This document shows, piece after piece, positions 11,238 to 17,214 of a DNA stretch of 64,000 nucleotides. The stretch lies in contig NZ_QOCL01000001.1 in NCBI RefSeq assembly GCF_004006665.1, positions 310,001 through 374,000 on the forward strand, read 5' to 3'. The translations under genes were made by a program, and so were the position numbers. A model generated the notes under the pieces. The model was not told the DNA's origin, made no database searches, and saw nothing but the letters and a program-made list of their open reading frames with translations. Within the stretch, counting starts at the first letter, position 1. Each line of letters begins with the position of its first letter. Origin of the DNA: Halobacteriovorax sp. HLS. GTDB lineage: Bacteria > Bdellovibrionota > Bacteriovoracia > Bacteriovoracales > Bacteriovoracaceae.

Positions 11238-11909
11238 TTATTCAAATTGTTTGAAATGATATTCTGAGGACTCGAATAATGACTTATGTTCAAGCACATA
11301 ATCTTTAGCGTCACTTACATTATCAAAAACACCTAATGATACTCGATACCAAGTTCCTCTGTTGGGAATAACCGCTTCATTGATAATTGGTGTATATCCT
11401 CTGGCCTTGAATCCTTTAGCGAAGCTTTCTGCTTCGTCTAAGGAAGGGAACGCTCCTACCTGAATTGTGTGCTTACCAGTGAAGTCATCACTTTTTGGGG
11501 CCGGTACTTCTATTTGCTTTTCATTCTTTTCTACTACAGCAATTTCATTATTCTTTACTACATCCTGTGCTGCAGGAGTATCACTAGAATTAAACTTTGA
11601 ATTTTCATTTAAAAACTCTTTTTCCATCTTCATTTTTAATGAATTATCTGTTTTTTCTTTTAAAGCTTTATATGTTTCTTCGTCATTTTTCTTTGTAGCT
11701 TCTTCAAGCTCATTCACCTTTTCTTCATCAGGAGAAAGAATATCAACTTTAACTTTATCCTCAACAGTGTAACCTGATTGTTCGAATGAGTTATTGACAC
11801 CAATCTTCACACCTAAAAGGAAGGATGTTAATGATATTAAAATCATAAACACGAAGATTAAAAAGACTTCTTTTTTAGCGAATACATATAATTTAGTTTT
11901 ATCGTCCAT
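11238..11909 (-). CDS. Membrane-anchored SPOR-domain protein
   Basis: 223 residues: short cytoplasmic N-terminus, one transmembrane helix (about 14-34), a long charged linker rich in Lys/Glu (about 45-140), and a C-terminal SPOR domain (about 145-223) starting KHTIQVGAFPSLDEAESFAKGF. SPOR domains bind denuded glycan strands of septal peptidoglycan, so this is probably a FtsN/DedD-like division or cell-wall remodelling factor. It lies upstream of, and in the same direction as, the guanylyltransferase, and is divergent from the flp locus. Confidence 0.85.
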   Translation of the reverse strand: MDDKTKLYVFAKKEVFLIFVFMILISLTSFLLGVKIGVNNSFEQSGYTVEDKVKVDILSPDEEKVNELEEATKKNDEETYKALKEKTDNSLKMKMEKEFLNENSKFNSSDTPAAQDVVKNNEIAVVEKNEKQIEVPAPKSDDFTGKHTIQVGAFPSLDEAESFAKGFKARGYTPIINEAVIPNRGTWYRVSLGVFDNVSDAKDYVLEHKSLFESSEYHFKQFE

Positions 11910-11975
11910 GAAGTTATTTTAATCTCGACACAAATCTCATGCAATCGTAATTACAGGTAGTTATTTTTTCCTAGT

Positions 11976-12013
11976 GGTCCAATAGCTGGACTCTTAAAAA
12001 GTGCAAAGCTCTG
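11976..12013. promoter_or_regulatory. Two short dyads upstream of the flp promoter
   Basis: GGTCC-AATAGCT-GGACT (11976-11992) is an inverted repeat centred near -74 relative to the predicted flp start site. CAAAGCTCTG (12004-12013), flanked by AAAAA on the left and TTTTTT on the right, is an imperfect dyad centred near -50. Either could bind an activator of sigma-54 polymerase or fold in RNA; the sequence alone does not decide. Confidence 0.3.
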
Positions 12014-12031: not shown

Positions 12032-12047
12032 TGGCACCTCCCCTGCA
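12032..12047 (+). promoter_or_regulatory. Sigma-54 (-24/-12) promoter of flp
   Basis: TGGCAC-CTCCC-CTGCA matches the RpoN consensus TGGCAC-N5-TTGCW at every defined base except one. GG lies at 12033-12034 and GC at 12045-12046, exactly 12 bases apart as required. The predicted start is about 12058, leaving a leader of about 25 bases with ribosome site AAAGGAG before the flp ATG at 12083. This GC-rich block stands out in an AT-rich intergenic region. I saw no other site of this quality in the window, by eye only. Confidence 0.8.
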
Positions 12048-12082
12048 ACCGCTTCAGTAAAGACTTTTTCAAAGGAGAAACC

Positions 12083-12262
12083 ATGAAAGCAACAATGAAA
12101 TTACTAAGAAATCAACAAGGTCAGGGAGTTATGGAGTATGTCATCATATCATCTTTAGTAGGAATTTTCTGCCTAGTCGCAATGAAACAATTTGGGCAGA
12201 CCATACAAACACGTGTTGAGAAAATGAAAAAAGAAGTCGTTAGAACCATACCTGTAAGATAA
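12083..12262 (+). CDS. flp: Flp-type pilin precursor
   Basis: A 59-residue protein with the Flp prepilin layout: short basic leader MKATMKLLRNQQG, a predicted cleavage after Gly13, then QGVMEY with Glu at +5 and Tyr at +6 of the mature protein. A single hydrophobic helix (about 19-35) and a short polar tail follow. The Glu5-Tyr6 pair is diagnostic of Flp/TadE-class pilins processed by a TadV-type peptidase. A strong ribosome site (AAAGGAG) and a sigma-54 promoter precede it. Its TAA overlaps the next ATG. It would be the major subunit of a Tad pilus or its surface filament. Confidence 0.88.
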   Translation: MKATMKLLRNQQGQGVMEYVIISSLVGIFCLVAMKQFGQTIQTRVEKMKKEVVRTIPVR

Positions 12263-12501
12263 TGATCATAACTTCAATAGTGTTGGGCCTCACGATAACT
12301 GTGGCCACAACAACCTACTCCATTTCATTGTTAAAAAGATCATCTTGTAACTCTATACACTATAGAAGGTCAATTCATTCATTAGAAGAAACAATTCTGA
12401 CATCTAAGACAAGTTACTTCAATGTATGCGGAAGAATAAGAAAAGTTACATCAAATGATTTAAATATTATTCTAAACAAAGACTATACTCTTTCAAAATG
12501 A
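12262..12501 (+). CDS. Small membrane-anchored protein of the Tad locus
   Basis: 79 residues with an N-terminal hydrophobic helix (about 2-24) and a polar, basic remainder containing two cysteines. No Flp cleavage site is evident. Its start overlaps the flp stop (TAATG) and its TGA overlaps the next gene (ATGA), so it is translated as part of the flp operon. It may be a minor pilin-like or assembly component, but I recognise no family. Confidence 0.6.
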   Translation: MIITSIVLGLTITVATTTYSISLLKRSSCNSIHYRRSIHSLEETILTSKTSYFNVCGRIRKVTSNDLNIILNKDYTLSK

Positions 12502-13082
12502 TAAAAAATGAACGAGGCTCTTCTCAGTTAATAATGTGCTTACTCTTACTTGTTCTTAGTGGGATCATGGTCATTGTGATAGGTCATTCATTGAATACAT
12601 ACAAGCAAGCATCTACAAAACTAAATACACTAATCTGTATGCGAAAGTCACAATTTTATCTATCAGAGTTCGTCTCATCAATTGCTCAAGCTAATAAAAT
12701 TATCAGAGTTAACTTCCCTCTTAAGCATTCAAAAATTCCATATGTTTCACAAACTGCATCGGTACTTATAAAGGGGTTAATATTAAAACAAAACTACGAA
12801 TTATATAAATACTATAGAAATACAAATGCTATAAAAGAATGTGCAAAGAGCTGTAAAATGCACTTACTTCAAGCACACCCATATAAAGTAAAATTAGGAT
12901 TTATTAGAAATCTAGATGAGACAACAAGCTTTAAAACGAGAACTTTTTCGGCCTTTTATTATTCGACCAACTTTTTATCTTCTCTAAAGTCAAAAGTAAC
13001 TGTCAAATCTACTCTTTCAACTAAGGTTTATATAGAGACTCGAAAGACTCTCCATCCTCTAAATGATTTCTTAAACTTCTAA
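12498..13082 (+). CDS. TadE/TadG-like pilin-related protein (tentative)
   Basis: 194 residues beginning MIKNERG-SSQLIMC followed by a hydrophobic helix (about 10-30). A charged leader ending in Gly next to a helix resembles the prepilin-type leader of TadE/TadG/TadF proteins, though the mature +5 Glu is missing (Ile instead). The rest is basic, with a Cys pair in KECAKSCKMH. It is the third gene of the flp operon and overlaps the previous gene by ATGA. Its last 62 bases overlap the convergent SRPBCC-like gene. Function is inferred from leader and context. Confidence 0.55.
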   Translation: MIKNERGSSQLIMCLLLLVLSGIMVIVIGHSLNTYKQASTKLNTLICMRKSQFYLSEFVSSIAQANKIIRVNFPLKHSKIPYVSQTASVLIKGLILKQNYELYKYYRNTNAIKECAKSCKMHLLQAHPYKVKLGFIRNLDETTSFKTRTFSAFYYSTNFLSSLKSKVTVKSTLSTKVYIETRKTLHPLNDFLNF

Positions 13083-13569
13083 GATATTTATTCATTATCA
13101 CACCATAGGACTTTTCTAAAACCTTCGCTGGGAGCGAAATTCCAATTGTAGCCTTACTCATAGAGGCCTCAAATTTAACAGTGTAAGTAAATAGAGTTCT
13201 ATTATGATCAATCCTCTTTACCTGACGTAGACTTTCAAGGTAGTAAGGAGAATCTTTGGGTGTAATATAGAAAGCATAGTCTTCACTCTTGAGCTCAACT
13301 AATTGAGTTCTAGTTATAAAGTTCTTTGCAAAACCAATGTGAGCATCCTCTGTATAAATGGTCCCTATTTCAAACTCCCCATTCGAACTCATGTGATTAA
13401 CCTCACTTCTCCAAAGATAATCATTCATTGTATTTTTAACAATATCAAAGACATCAGAGTGTGAACTCTCTATCAAGATGGACTTCGAAATAGTAGCAAG
13501 CTTACCTACGGCGAAAATCTGATTTGAAAAAACGGCAACTATAAGAAAAATAGATATTTCTTTGATCAT
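13021..13569 (-). CDS. Secreted SRPBCC/START-like protein (tentative)
   Basis: 182 residues with a signal peptide (about 1-20, ending NQIFA) and a mature part whose strand pattern resembles polyketide-cyclase/START-type lipid-binding folds: ISKSILIESSHSDVFDIVKN near the start, then an antiparallel sheet and a long C-terminal helix. Ribosome site AGAGGAG lies just before the ATG. It lies on the opposite strand, inside the Tad locus, and overlaps the convergent pilin-like gene by 62 bp. A link to the pilus is not implied. Confidence 0.6.
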   Translation of the reverse strand: MIKEISIFLIVAVFSNQIFAVGKLATISKSILIESSHSDVFDIVKNTMNDYLWRSEVNHMSSNGEFEIGTIYTEDAHIGFAKNFITRTQLVELKSEDYAFYITPKDSPYYLESLRQVKRIDHNRTLFTYTVKFEASMSKATIGISLPAKVLEKSYGVIMNKYLRSLRNHLEDGESFESLYKP

Positions 13570-13707: not shown

Positions 13708-13899
13708 ATGGACAATAGAGGAATCAGTCAAATAGAAGTATCGGTATTCCTATTCGTGCTTTGCTTAAGTTTAATGAGCTTTACTAAGGCAATAATACAT
13801 ATACAAAAAATCGAAAAAAGAGAGCTACATGAATTCAAGTATAAATGGAATAGATTCAAGTCTAAAAATATTCAAAGAATCTACAGAGATCCGAAATAA
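13708..13899 (+). CDS. Minor pilin / TadE-like pseudopilin
   Basis: 63 residues from ATG 13708, chosen because GAGGTG sits just upstream; the frame is open to 13678 but the added residues have no ribosome site. The leader MDNRG is followed by ISQIEV, putting Glu at +5 after the predicted Gly cleavage, then a hydrophobic helix (about 10-27) and a basic tail. This matches the prepilin class of the Flp gene at 12083. It overlaps the next gene by 71 bp. Confidence 0.62.
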   Translation: MDNRGISQIEVSVFLFVLCLSLMSFTKAIIHIQKIEKRELHEFKYKWNRFKSKNIQRIYRDPK

Positions 13900-14281
13900 G
13901 AAAAAACAGCGTTTTTTGATAATTAAATTTATTCTAATTTTCTTTATATCTCATGGCCTCAGGTCTATTTTGATGAATAAGCCAATTTCAGTACCTGCTC
14001 CACAGAAACAAGTAAAAGAAAATTTCTTAAGAATGAAGATAAAGGCCCAATCCTTTGTTAGCGAAGATGCGACAAGAGCAAACCTCTTTCACAAAATCAA
14101 ACATATTGAAATTGAGAATATTGAAATCATAGCATTAAAAGCTGATTCCGATTTTTTTGAAATTGAAATACCTGTTGATAAAGTTGGCTTGATCCTAATG
14201 AATCAAGAAAATTGGCAACTCATTCCACAAAGAAAAGCTAAAAAAAATAAAAAGGAAAAAAGATATGAAATTCTTCTTTAG
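13829..14281 (+). CDS. CpaB/RcpC-like inner-membrane protein (tentative)
   Basis: 150 residues: a basic cytoplasmic N-terminus, one transmembrane helix (about 29-46), then an extracytoplasmic part ending in a Lys-rich tail. The stretch FEIEIPVDKVGLILMNQ followed by NWQLIPQR resembles the end of CpaB/RcpC, where a strand, a helix and a final strand finish the domain, but the SAF part is shortened and the match is by eye. Its place just upstream of a secretin fits, since CpaB works with the CpaC secretin. An alternative start is TTG 13916. It overlaps its neighbours by 71 and 17 bp. Confidence 0.45.
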   Translation: MNSSINGIDSSLKIFKESTEIRNKKKQRFLIIKFILIFFISHGLRSILMNKPISVPAPQKQVKENFLRMKIKAQSFVSEDATRANLFHKIKHIEIENIEIIALKADSDFFEIEIPVDKVGLILMNQENWQLIPQRKAKKNKKEKRYEILL

Positions 14282-14613: not shown

Positions 14614-14739
14614 TTAGTCTTGGTGAATTGCAAACTTAGGAGTTGTTCCCTTGTTCTTATTAGCGGCCTTTCTTTTAGCACCAGCTTTTGTCTTCTTGTT
14701 TCTTCTTCTGTTTTCAGTAATTTTTGTGTTAGATACCAT
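14614..14739 (-). CDS. Small highly basic protein (41 residues)
   Basis: From ATG 14737-14739, which has a good ribosome site (AGGAGAG), the product is 41 residues: MVSNTKITENRRRNKKTKAG at the front and GTTPKFAIHQD at the end. About 40% of residues are Lys or Arg. It looks like a ribosome- or nucleic-acid-associated peptide. I have the impression of similar small basic proteins in related bacteria but cannot name a family. Its start codon overlaps the possible secretin start on the other strand. It has its own terminator at 14567-14588. Confidence 0.7.
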   Translation of the reverse strand: MVSNTKITENRRRNKKTKAGAKRKAANKNKGTTPKFAIHQD

Positions 14740-16105
14740 GATATCTCTCCTATATATTAAAATCTTTAAAGTACTATTTTCTTTAATTAGAACTGGTTTT
14801 TTACCTAGTTGCAGACAAATTGTCAAAATAATTGTGCTAGGCCATATTTTTATTCTCTCCCCCAATACTCTAAGTACTGAATATTATGAAAAGGAGTCAT
14901 CATCTATTGTTTTGTCCATTGGAGAATATAGAAGACTTCCCTTTAGTCAGAGTTCATCTTACGCAATGAGTAATAAAGAGCTAATCATAGCGACGCCCTC
15001 AACTGACAAAAAATCACTCATCATAAGGGCAAAACACTTAGGGGTTTCGACATTAACAATTTGGAGTAAAAATACCCCTAAAACAAGAGTTATGGTGCAA
15101 GTCATCAGTAAAGTTCAAAAAATGTCTTTAGATGAAGATATTAAGGTACTTGATGGACAAGGTCTAAACCCTTCACTTAATAATGGAAAACTGAGTTTTT
15201 CAACTCCAGTTACAAATTTAGAGCAACTCAAAAGTCTTGGCGATGTATTAAAGAAACGAACTTCTAAGTTATACCCTCTTGATCAAAATATTCATCTAGA
15301 GAAAAACTTTAGCAAGCAATTGACTTCCATAATCTACACAAAACTTCTAGATAGTCATCTTACACCTGTCGAGTGTGACTTTAGTGAAATTCCCTTAAAG
15401 TGTACATTCGAAAAAAATTTAAGTACTCAAATAAAGCCAGAAAACTTGCTGATGCCACAAATCCCCATCGTATTTTTTGCGCTAGACAGAGCTTACCTTC
15501 GTCCAAATATATTACTAAAAGCAAGGATTATTCTCATTGAAAGTGCAACCGGAATTAATCAAGGACTAGGTATGAATGCTTTAAGTTCAAAAGTCGAAAA
15601 TATTCTAAAAAAGGACTTTAACTCTCTAATAAATAATAACGAGGTCATCTTTACCAAGGATAGTGCGCAAATATCATCTTTAGCAACTCCTCAAATGATT
15701 TTATCAGAGGAGGAAAGTGCGACAATAAGTCTTGGAAGTGACATTCCTTTTACTATTAGAACAAAGGAATCATCAAATACACAATGGAAATTTGCCGGCC
15801 TAAAATTGACAACAGAAGTCAGAAAAAATGGAGACAAATACAAACTCTCTCTTGAAACAGAACTTTCAAAACCAAACGCAGGAGAGAACCCAACTATAAC
15901 TTCAAATAGACTTTCAACAAGTCTTCTTCTGCCATTAGATTCTGTAACTAAAGTAAGTGAGTTGTTTCACACGGGAGTACAGTCTCAATCTAACAGCTTG
16001 CCGTATGTAAGTAGTATTCCTTTACTTGGAAAACTTTTCTCAAACGATAATGAATTAACCTCGAATAAACATATCTTAATTTATTTCAAACTAGAGGAAA
16101 TTTAA
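14738..16105 (+). CDS. Tad/Flp pilus secretin (CpaC/RcpA family)
   Basis: Outer-membrane channel for the pilus. From ATG 14738 it has 455 residues: signal-like hydrophobic region (about 32-43), a pilus-formation N-domain (about 50-120, with IVLSIGEYRRLPF and GVSTLTIWSKN), and a C-terminal secretin domain (about 320-455) with ATPQMILSEEESATISLGSD and YVSSIPLLGKLFS near the end. The start is uncertain: the frame is open to 14651, 14738 has no clear ribosome site and collides with the divergent start at 14739, and GTG further down is possible. Its stop overlaps the ATPase start (TAATG). Confidence 0.85.
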   Translation: MISLLYIKIFKVLFSLIRTGFLPSCRQIVKIIVLGHIFILSPNTLSTEYYEKESSSIVLSIGEYRRLPFSQSSSYAMSNKELIIATPSTDKKSLIIRAKHLGVSTLTIWSKNTPKTRVMVQVISKVQKMSLDEDIKVLDGQGLNPSLNNGKLSFSTPVTNLEQLKSLGDVLKKRTSKLYPLDQNIHLEKNFSKQLTSIIYTKLLDSHLTPVECDFSEIPLKCTFEKNLSTQIKPENLLMPQIPIVFFALDRAYLRPNILLKARIILIESATGINQGLGMNALSSKVENILKKDFNSLINNNEVIFTKDSAQISSLATPQMILSEEESATISLGSDIPFTIRTKESSNTQWKFAGLKLTTEVRKNGDKYKLSLETELSKPNAGENPTITSNRLSTSLLLPLDSVTKVSELFHTGVQSQSNSLPYVSSIPLLGKLFSNDNELTSNKHILIYFKLEEI

Positions 16106-17214
16106 TGAACTTAAGTGATGATTTAAAACATTTATGTAGAAGTTATATAAAGAAGTCTATCCAAAGGGCTCACTGTCCGAGTGTGGAACAAATCATTTCA
16201 AATCTAGAAATTGAATTTGGAAAAGATTGGCAAATTCTACTACCAAAAGATTTACTCATAAACTGGTATGAAAAAATAGAGCACCTACAATTCATACAAT
16301 ATGATTCTACTATTGAAGAAATACTTATTCATAGTGCAAAAACAATTACATATATTTATGCAAATAGCAGAAAATCTACCGAATGTGGCATAAGTCAGCA
16401 AGATCTTGAGTTGTCACTAGAATTGCTTTGTATAAAAGAAAGGATAGATTGGAATGAGAACTCTCCCTTTGTTAGTTTTAAGTATAGAATTGGTAATCAA
16501 GATATAAGAATCTCTCTAACCCACAAATCTCTTAGTTGCGAACATTCACATAAAGCTTCTATTAGATTTCATACTAAGGAAAGCTACCCTATTTCTTCAT
16601 ATTTCTCTTCTTTAAAAGTCCAAAATATAGTTATTAATTTATTCAAAAATAGAAAGAATATTCTTATCTCAGGTTCAACAGGCTCCGGTAAAACATCATT
16701 TATATCTACACTTTTAAGTGAGGCCGATAAGGAAGAACACCTTATTATTATAGAAGATACTCATGAACTGATCTCTCCCAATCAGTGTTCTACAAGACTT
16801 CTATCTGGTCCCCAGAATGGTCACTCACTAAATGATTATTGTAATTATTCACTCAGACTAAGGCCTGATAGGGTTATTGTAGGAGAAATTAGATCCCACG
16901 AATGTATTCCTTTCATCCTCAATGCAAATAATGGACATAAGGGACTTATTGGTTCAATTCATGCGAATTCGGCCGCAAAAGTTCCTCAGCGACTCTCAAC
17001 ATTGCTATGTTTATATTCTAAAATGAACGGTATCAATAATGACATAGCACTAGAACTAATTGCATCAGGAATTGATATTATTATACACATGGAAGATAAG
17101 AAGGTCGTTGAGGTGATAAAGCTTCTTAATGTAGAATGTGGAGTTACACATTATGAAGATTTGTTAGAATCAAATCATGAATATGGTCAACAGCTGAGTT
17201 CATTTTCTGCTTAG
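16105..17214 (+). CDS. Tad pilus assembly ATPase (CpaF/TadA family)
   Basis: Hexameric secretion ATPase that powers Flp pilus assembly at the inner membrane. The 369 residues include a poorly conserved N-terminal domain, Walker A GSTGSGKT (190-197), an Asp-box LIIIEDTHEL, a Walker B-type RLRPDRVIVGEIRS, and a His-box GHKGLIGSIHANSA. It is somewhat shorter than typical CpaF at the N-terminus. It follows the secretin by a TAATG overlap. Its last 71 bases overlap the convergent aspartate kinase. Confidence 0.92.
   Translation: MNLSDDLKHLCRSYIKKSIQRAHCPSVEQIISNLEIEFGKDWQILLPKDLLINWYEKIEHLQFIQYDSTIEEILIHSAKTITYIYANSRKSTECGISQQDLELSLELLCIKERIDWNENSPFVSFKYRIGNQDIRISLTHKSLSCEHSHKASIRFHTKESYPISSYFSSLKVQNIVINLFKNRKNILISGSTGSGKTSFISTLLSEADKEEHLIIIEDTHELISPNQCSTRLLSGPQNGHSLNDYCNYSLRLRPDRVIVGEIRSHECIPFILNANNGHKGLIGSIHANSAAKVPQRLSTLLCLYSKMNGINNDIALELIASGIDIIIHMEDKKVVEVIKLLNVECGVTHYEDLLESNHEYGQQLSSFSA

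Follow-up and report, generated by a model that had tools for sequence, protein, structure and literature searches.

What drives transcription of the Flp pilin gene in a predatory marine bacterium? We address this question in a 64,000-nt stretch of the Halobacteriovorax sp. HLS genome (hereafter the window), in which a motif resembling a sigma-54 promoter stands directly in front of flp. For the related predator Bdellovibrio, PMC5430801 reports that FliA drives the flp1/TAD operon, proposes FliA for the TAD-associated flp genes of other BALOs, and places flp4 apart from the TAD operon, with no regulator assigned to it there. Elsewhere, pilin genes are under sigma-54. As cited in PMC3333781, sigma-54 and PilR control the type IVa pilin gene pilA in Pseudomonas, Myxococcus, and Geobacter. 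NtrC-family activation of Flp/Tad pilin genes already has a precedent in Desulfovibrio vulgaris, where DVU2114 targets the Flp/Tad-type pilin genes DORF39640-DVU2116 (PMC3333781).

The Pilus Cluster and the Element before flp

The pilus genes of the window lie in the order flp, orf2, orf3, an opposite-strand gene, a gene in the RcpC position, a secretin, and a TadA/VirB11-type ATPase:

12083–12262, + strand: flp, a 59-aa Flp-type prepilin with the motif G-QGVMEY (orthologues in relatives; Pfam Flp_Fap below cut-off, E=0.008)
12262–12501, + strand: orf2, hydrophobic N-terminus, overlaps the flp stop, likely in the same operon as flp; no Pfam match
12498–13082, + strand: orf3, pseudopilin-like, hydrophobic N-terminus, likely in the flp operon; a similar gene occupies the same place in relatives
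13021–13569, − strand: opposite-strand gene within the pilus operon, not at that place in three relatives (G001, G013, G017); no Pfam match
13829–14281, + strand: gene in the RcpC position of the cluster (by position only; no family match)
14651–16105, + strand: secretin in the RcpA position (Secretin, E=1e-15)
16105–17214, + strand: TadA/VirB11-type ATPase (TadA family, E=1.6e-36, below the curated cut-off)

The flp product is a short prepilin with G-XXXX-EY followed by a hydrophobic stretch, and its neighbors are of the Tad type, as in Flp pilins. The opposite-strand gene splits a pilus operon that is contiguous in the three relatives named above. Since the cluster is uninterrupted there, all genes of the pilus operon could be transcribed from the flp promoter in those genomes; in the window, transcription from it most likely covers flp, orf2, and orf3. 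The TadA-type ATPase had no match in the genome_contigs collection, and Flp had none in the viral_contigs collection.

Three features upstream of flp concern transcription:

11916–11944, − strand: sigma-70-like promoter TTGCAT-N17-TAAAAT, inferred for the divergent SPOR-domain gene (11238–11909) and largely conserved in the genus
12032–12047, + strand: sigma-54 −24/−12 promoter element TGGCAC-CTCCC-CTGCA, by direct reading and GG/GC conservation
12057–12058, + strand: predicted transcription start, from the position of the −12 box

Sigma-54 (RpoN) promoters follow the consensus TGGCAC-N5-TTGCW. The element before flp is made up of TGGCAC (12032–12037), the spacer CTCCC (12038–12042), and CTGCA (12043–12047), and it departs from the consensus only where the −12 box begins, with C instead of T. 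G12033 and G12045 are 12 bases apart, with 10 bases between the GG of −24 and the GC of −12. The sequence AAAGGAG stands between the element and the flp ATG at 12083, and a start at about 12057 would give a leader of about 25 nt. Direct reading confirmed all that the original prediction had described here: the motif, the 12-base GG/GC distance, the leader, and the ribosome site.

How often would such an element occur by chance? In a pattern-matching scan of the 3.84-Mb genome, TGGCACN5YTGCW has 10 exact sites, compared to 2.3 expected from base composition, and the reversed pattern, used as a control, has none. The composition-based expectation for the exact pattern is 0.04 in the window and 4e-5 per 150-nt upstream region. 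When one mismatch is allowed, the count in the window is no higher than chance. Hence, the case for sigma-54 is carried by conservation.

Some of the other exact sites deserve mention in their own right. One stands before a gene for the flagellar rod, the kind of gene that sigma-54 classically controls; several precede genes for apparently secreted proteins. Three exact sites (L003, L009, and L011, at C2:281983, C12:63802, and C12:165314) have TGGCACGNNACTTGCTWTAT in common. Neither C12 site is followed directly by a convincing ORF, and both are possibly small RNA promoters.

Conservation of the −24/−12 Element among Relatives

Of 59 related genomes, 44 provided flp orthologues, and 71 loci came from named records. 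We scored 100 distinct loci, counting a locus as positive if a site scoring at least 17 lay within 110 nt of the ATG. The −24/−12 element is present at 43 of the 100 loci. Dinucleotide shuffles gave a mean of 2.1 (at most 6 in 50 shuffles), and the reverse strand gave a single match among the 100 loci. In positive loci the GC lies mostly 25–50 nt from the ATG. All five genomes of the genus Halobacteriovorax keep the GG and GC; the H. marinus version is TGGTCGCTCGCTTGCT. Gibbs sampling without a consensus recovered TTGGCA..TGCA from the positive loci, which is a consistency check and not independent proof, as these loci had been picked by consensus. The element also occurs in other families of the phylum (G040, G046, G054, G038).

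These counts bear out the RpoN promoter that had been proposed for flp, together with the expectation that relatives would carry the same motif. It had also been suggested that the genome be searched for rpoN and for genes of enhancer-binding proteins (EBPs); both are there, rpoN as a single copy. It is very probable that the control DNA before flp is a genuine sigma-54 switch and conserved in evolution. Taken alone, the reading of the element as a sigma-54 promoter is, in our judgment, highly likely to be correct.

The −24/−12 element is missing from about half of the flp loci in Bacteriovoracia, although nearly all genomes carry rpoN. Loss of rpoN as the cause of the missing sites is ruled out, because rpoN is still found in 56 of the 59 relatives. 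On the RpoN tree, the promoter changed at least six times on firm branches, and this suggests an old flp promoter that was lost repeatedly. Many sigma-54-negative loci (e.g., L038, L152, L168, and L180) have a different dyad, TTTCA-N4-YGAAC/A, located 80–110 nt before the ATG.

The Upstream Dyad

Sigma-54 promoters are opened by activators, and the original prediction named two dyads between 11976 and 12013 as possible activator sites. The first holds up as a real and conserved dyad. The second, at 11993–12013, does not: it is absent from an inverted-repeat search and is not conserved.

11976–11992, + strand: probable enhancer (UAS) dyad GGTCCA-ATAGC-TGGACT, conserved, 56 nt upstream of −24

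The UAS consensus is GGTTYA-N5-TRAACC, and the window copy reads GGTCCAATAGCTGGACT. A de novo search upstream of −24 returned the dyad as a width-18 motif, RGTYCA...AACC, of 12.0 bits. The shuffle control covers the width-15 run only (10.8 bits compared to 7.5–7.7), and the width-15 motif is an adjacent ATGCAA block, not the UAS. A genome outside the genus's near kin, G029, has a perfect dyad, GGTTCATTTTTTGAACC, 55–56 nt from −24. No clear UAS was found at several positive loci (G008, G013, G023, G032).

Across loci, the distance between the UAS and −24 falls into classes of 55–58, 68, 78–79, and 88 nt. The classes also differ among relatives with common flanks, and the steps are about one helical turn, which is the trace expected of an activator that acts from one face of the helix. 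The vector strength of the phasing is 0.87 at 10.5–11 bp (p=0.004), for eight representative values that were chosen by hand and with related genomes counted as partly independent. The conserved, phased dyad fits an enhancer site for an activator bound on one helix face. From the sequence evidence so far, it is very likely that flp is driven from a sigma-54 promoter with an upstream enhancer.

By the pattern used, the dyad and a sigma-54 site occur in such an arrangement nowhere in the genome but at the flp promoter. A search of 37 genomes for exact GTTCA-N5-TGAAC with a loose GG/TGC revealed no common regulon; beyond the flp locus in G029, the matches lay mostly at unrelated places. At C3:456807 in the Halobacteriovorax sp. 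HLS genome (L005), the flp-type UAS occurs twice in looser form, 84 and 67 nt upstream of a sigma-54 promoter, with 10 of 12 positions matched by each copy. The gene behind this promoter encodes a 460-aa protein of no Pfam family, which begins like a signal peptide and is probably secreted. This promoter is a candidate second target of the activator discussed below.

A Candidate Activator

The genome encodes ten clear EBP-type proteins, and seven have a GAFTGA-like loop. In three proteins, a PilZ-GAF-AAA-HTH protein (L079:2476–4419), an AAA-HTH protein beside flgBC (L071:7109–8053), and a GAF-AAA-HTH protein (L078:2799–4343), the loop is not recognizable. Hence, these three may be unable to open sigma-54 promoters. 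No EBP gene lies within about 10 kb of flp in 20 relatives.

One of the ten, E7, is encoded outside the window (C2:127192–128091). It is a solo AAA+-HTH protein, lacking both receiver and sensor domains, and it has the features of an EBP: an AAA+ Sigma54_activat domain, Walker A, GAFTGA, and a C-terminal HTH. In the EBP sets of 11 further genomes, E1, E3, E4, E6, and E9 occur regardless of the flp promoter, whereas E7 tracks it. A profile built from eight E7 proteins was searched in 37 genomes. Of the 17 genomes with the promoter, 16 have short E7-type proteins with a common recognition helix, as do 3 of the 18 without it (Fisher p=4e-6, with E7 singled out after inspection of about ten EBPs, and with long-branched E6 grouping among E7-type proteins in a quick tree). 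The association persists in genomes not used for picking E7 (p=5e-4) and without the window's genus (p=0.003), and a Pagel-type test on the RpoN tree agrees (LR 17.3, p=0.0017). G008, alone among the positive genomes in lacking E7, also has no recognizable UAS. Taken together, these patterns make E7 the probable activator of the flp promoter.

E7 lies near the same membrane-protein gene in the Halobacteriovorax sp. HLS genome and in G029. Autoregulation of E7 through a flp-type UAS and a sigma-54 site was not seen. Its architecture resembles that of the phage shock activator PspF, also a solo AAA+-HTH protein with no regulatory domain. PspF itself can be rejected, as E7 scores 178 bits against a cut-off of 444 in the curated NCBIfam PspF model. 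No PspA-type partner of E7 was identified, and the inferred target of E7, unlike that of PspF, is a pilin operon.

Alternative Explanations

The most serious alternative accepts the sigma-54 promoter and assigns it to another EBP, such as E1 or E3, both REC-AAA proteins, or E9, a GAF protein, with E7 tracking flp for some other reason. E1, E4, E6, and E9 are nearly universal among the compared genomes and could fill the role, and three genomes (G012, G018, and G028) have E7 with no recognizable sigma-54 promoter before flp. What ubiquitous EBPs leave unexplained is the joint coming and going of the promoter and E7, and we regard a different activator as rather unlikely.

One could also argue that FliA (sigma-28) transcribes flp, as it does flp1/TAD in Bdellovibrio. 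The idea can draw on experiments in B. bacteriovorus and B. exovorus (PMC5430801) and on the attack-phase promoter TTAAG-N16-CCGATA (PMC3627812). When the flp loci of Bacteriovoracia were scored against shuffles, this promoter showed no excess: the best upstream match averages 7.0 of 11 positions, compared to 7.0 in shuffles, with sigma-54-positive and -negative loci alike. A role for FliA at these genes is therefore improbable. Even less probable is that the element is a chance match and that flp has an ordinary sigma-70 promoter. Matches to a degenerate consensus do arise by chance, as the one-mismatch count in the window illustrates, but chance would hardly yield 43 loci where 2.1 are expected, and sigma-70 scores before flp equal those of shuffles.

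Discussion

How would a sigma-54 promoter with E7 as its activator operate? RNA polymerase carrying RpoN would transcribe flp, and would be held closed at 12032–12047 until an activator arrives. A hexameric AAA+ enhancer-binding protein, most likely E7, would sit on the dyad at 11976–11992, about 70–80 bp upstream of the start, and open the promoter with ATP. Pilus output would then be set by the amount of E7 or by an E7 partner, rather than through a receiver domain.

The original prediction had pilin expression switched by an RpoN activator in response to a signal, with prey attachment as an example. The first part is supported by the promoter, the EBPs, and one dyad that looks like an activator site. 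Attachment as the signal is not: E7 has no sensor domain, and flp pilins of Bdellovibrio are not needed for attachment. For B. bacteriovorus, PMC5430801 describes flp1, flp2, and flp4 as attack-phase genes that predation requires and adhesion does not.

By sequence, the flp promoter is of the same kind as known sigma-54 pilin promoters and would work as they do. As in the PilR/pilA systems, a pilin gene appears to be under a sigma-54-dependent activator with an upstream site. However, those systems concern type IVa pili and two-component regulators, whereas here the pilus is of the Flp (type IVb/Tad) class and the candidate is a solo activator. DVU2114 is closer in its target, a Tad-type pilin operon, and its authors class it with sigma-54-dependent response regulators (PMC3333781). 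DVU2114 is, however, a response regulator with a gene number next to those of the pilin genes, whereas E7 lacks a receiver domain, has its gene far from flp, and belongs to a different phylum. Bdellovibrio flp1/TAD shares with Halobacteriovorax flp an alternative sigma factor before a Flp gene in predatory Bdellovibrionota. The factors differ: sigma-28 in Bdellovibrio, and by our reading sigma-54 in Halobacteriovorax, with no FliA signal in the flp promoters of Bacteriovoracia.

A broader reading, to which we give a probability of roughly 0.55, is that the Flp pilus of Bacteriovoracia may be run by a dedicated sigma-54 module of RpoN, the sensorless solo activator E7, and a phased enhancer, a module that would have been gained or lost jointly several times. 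The same pilus would then be under sigma-54 here, under FliA in Bdellovibrio, and under a third, dyad-driven mode elsewhere. This suggests repeated rewiring of the choice of sigma factor for one pilus within one phylum. With a conserved sigma-54 promoter and a named candidate activator, pilus control in marine predators becomes directly testable.
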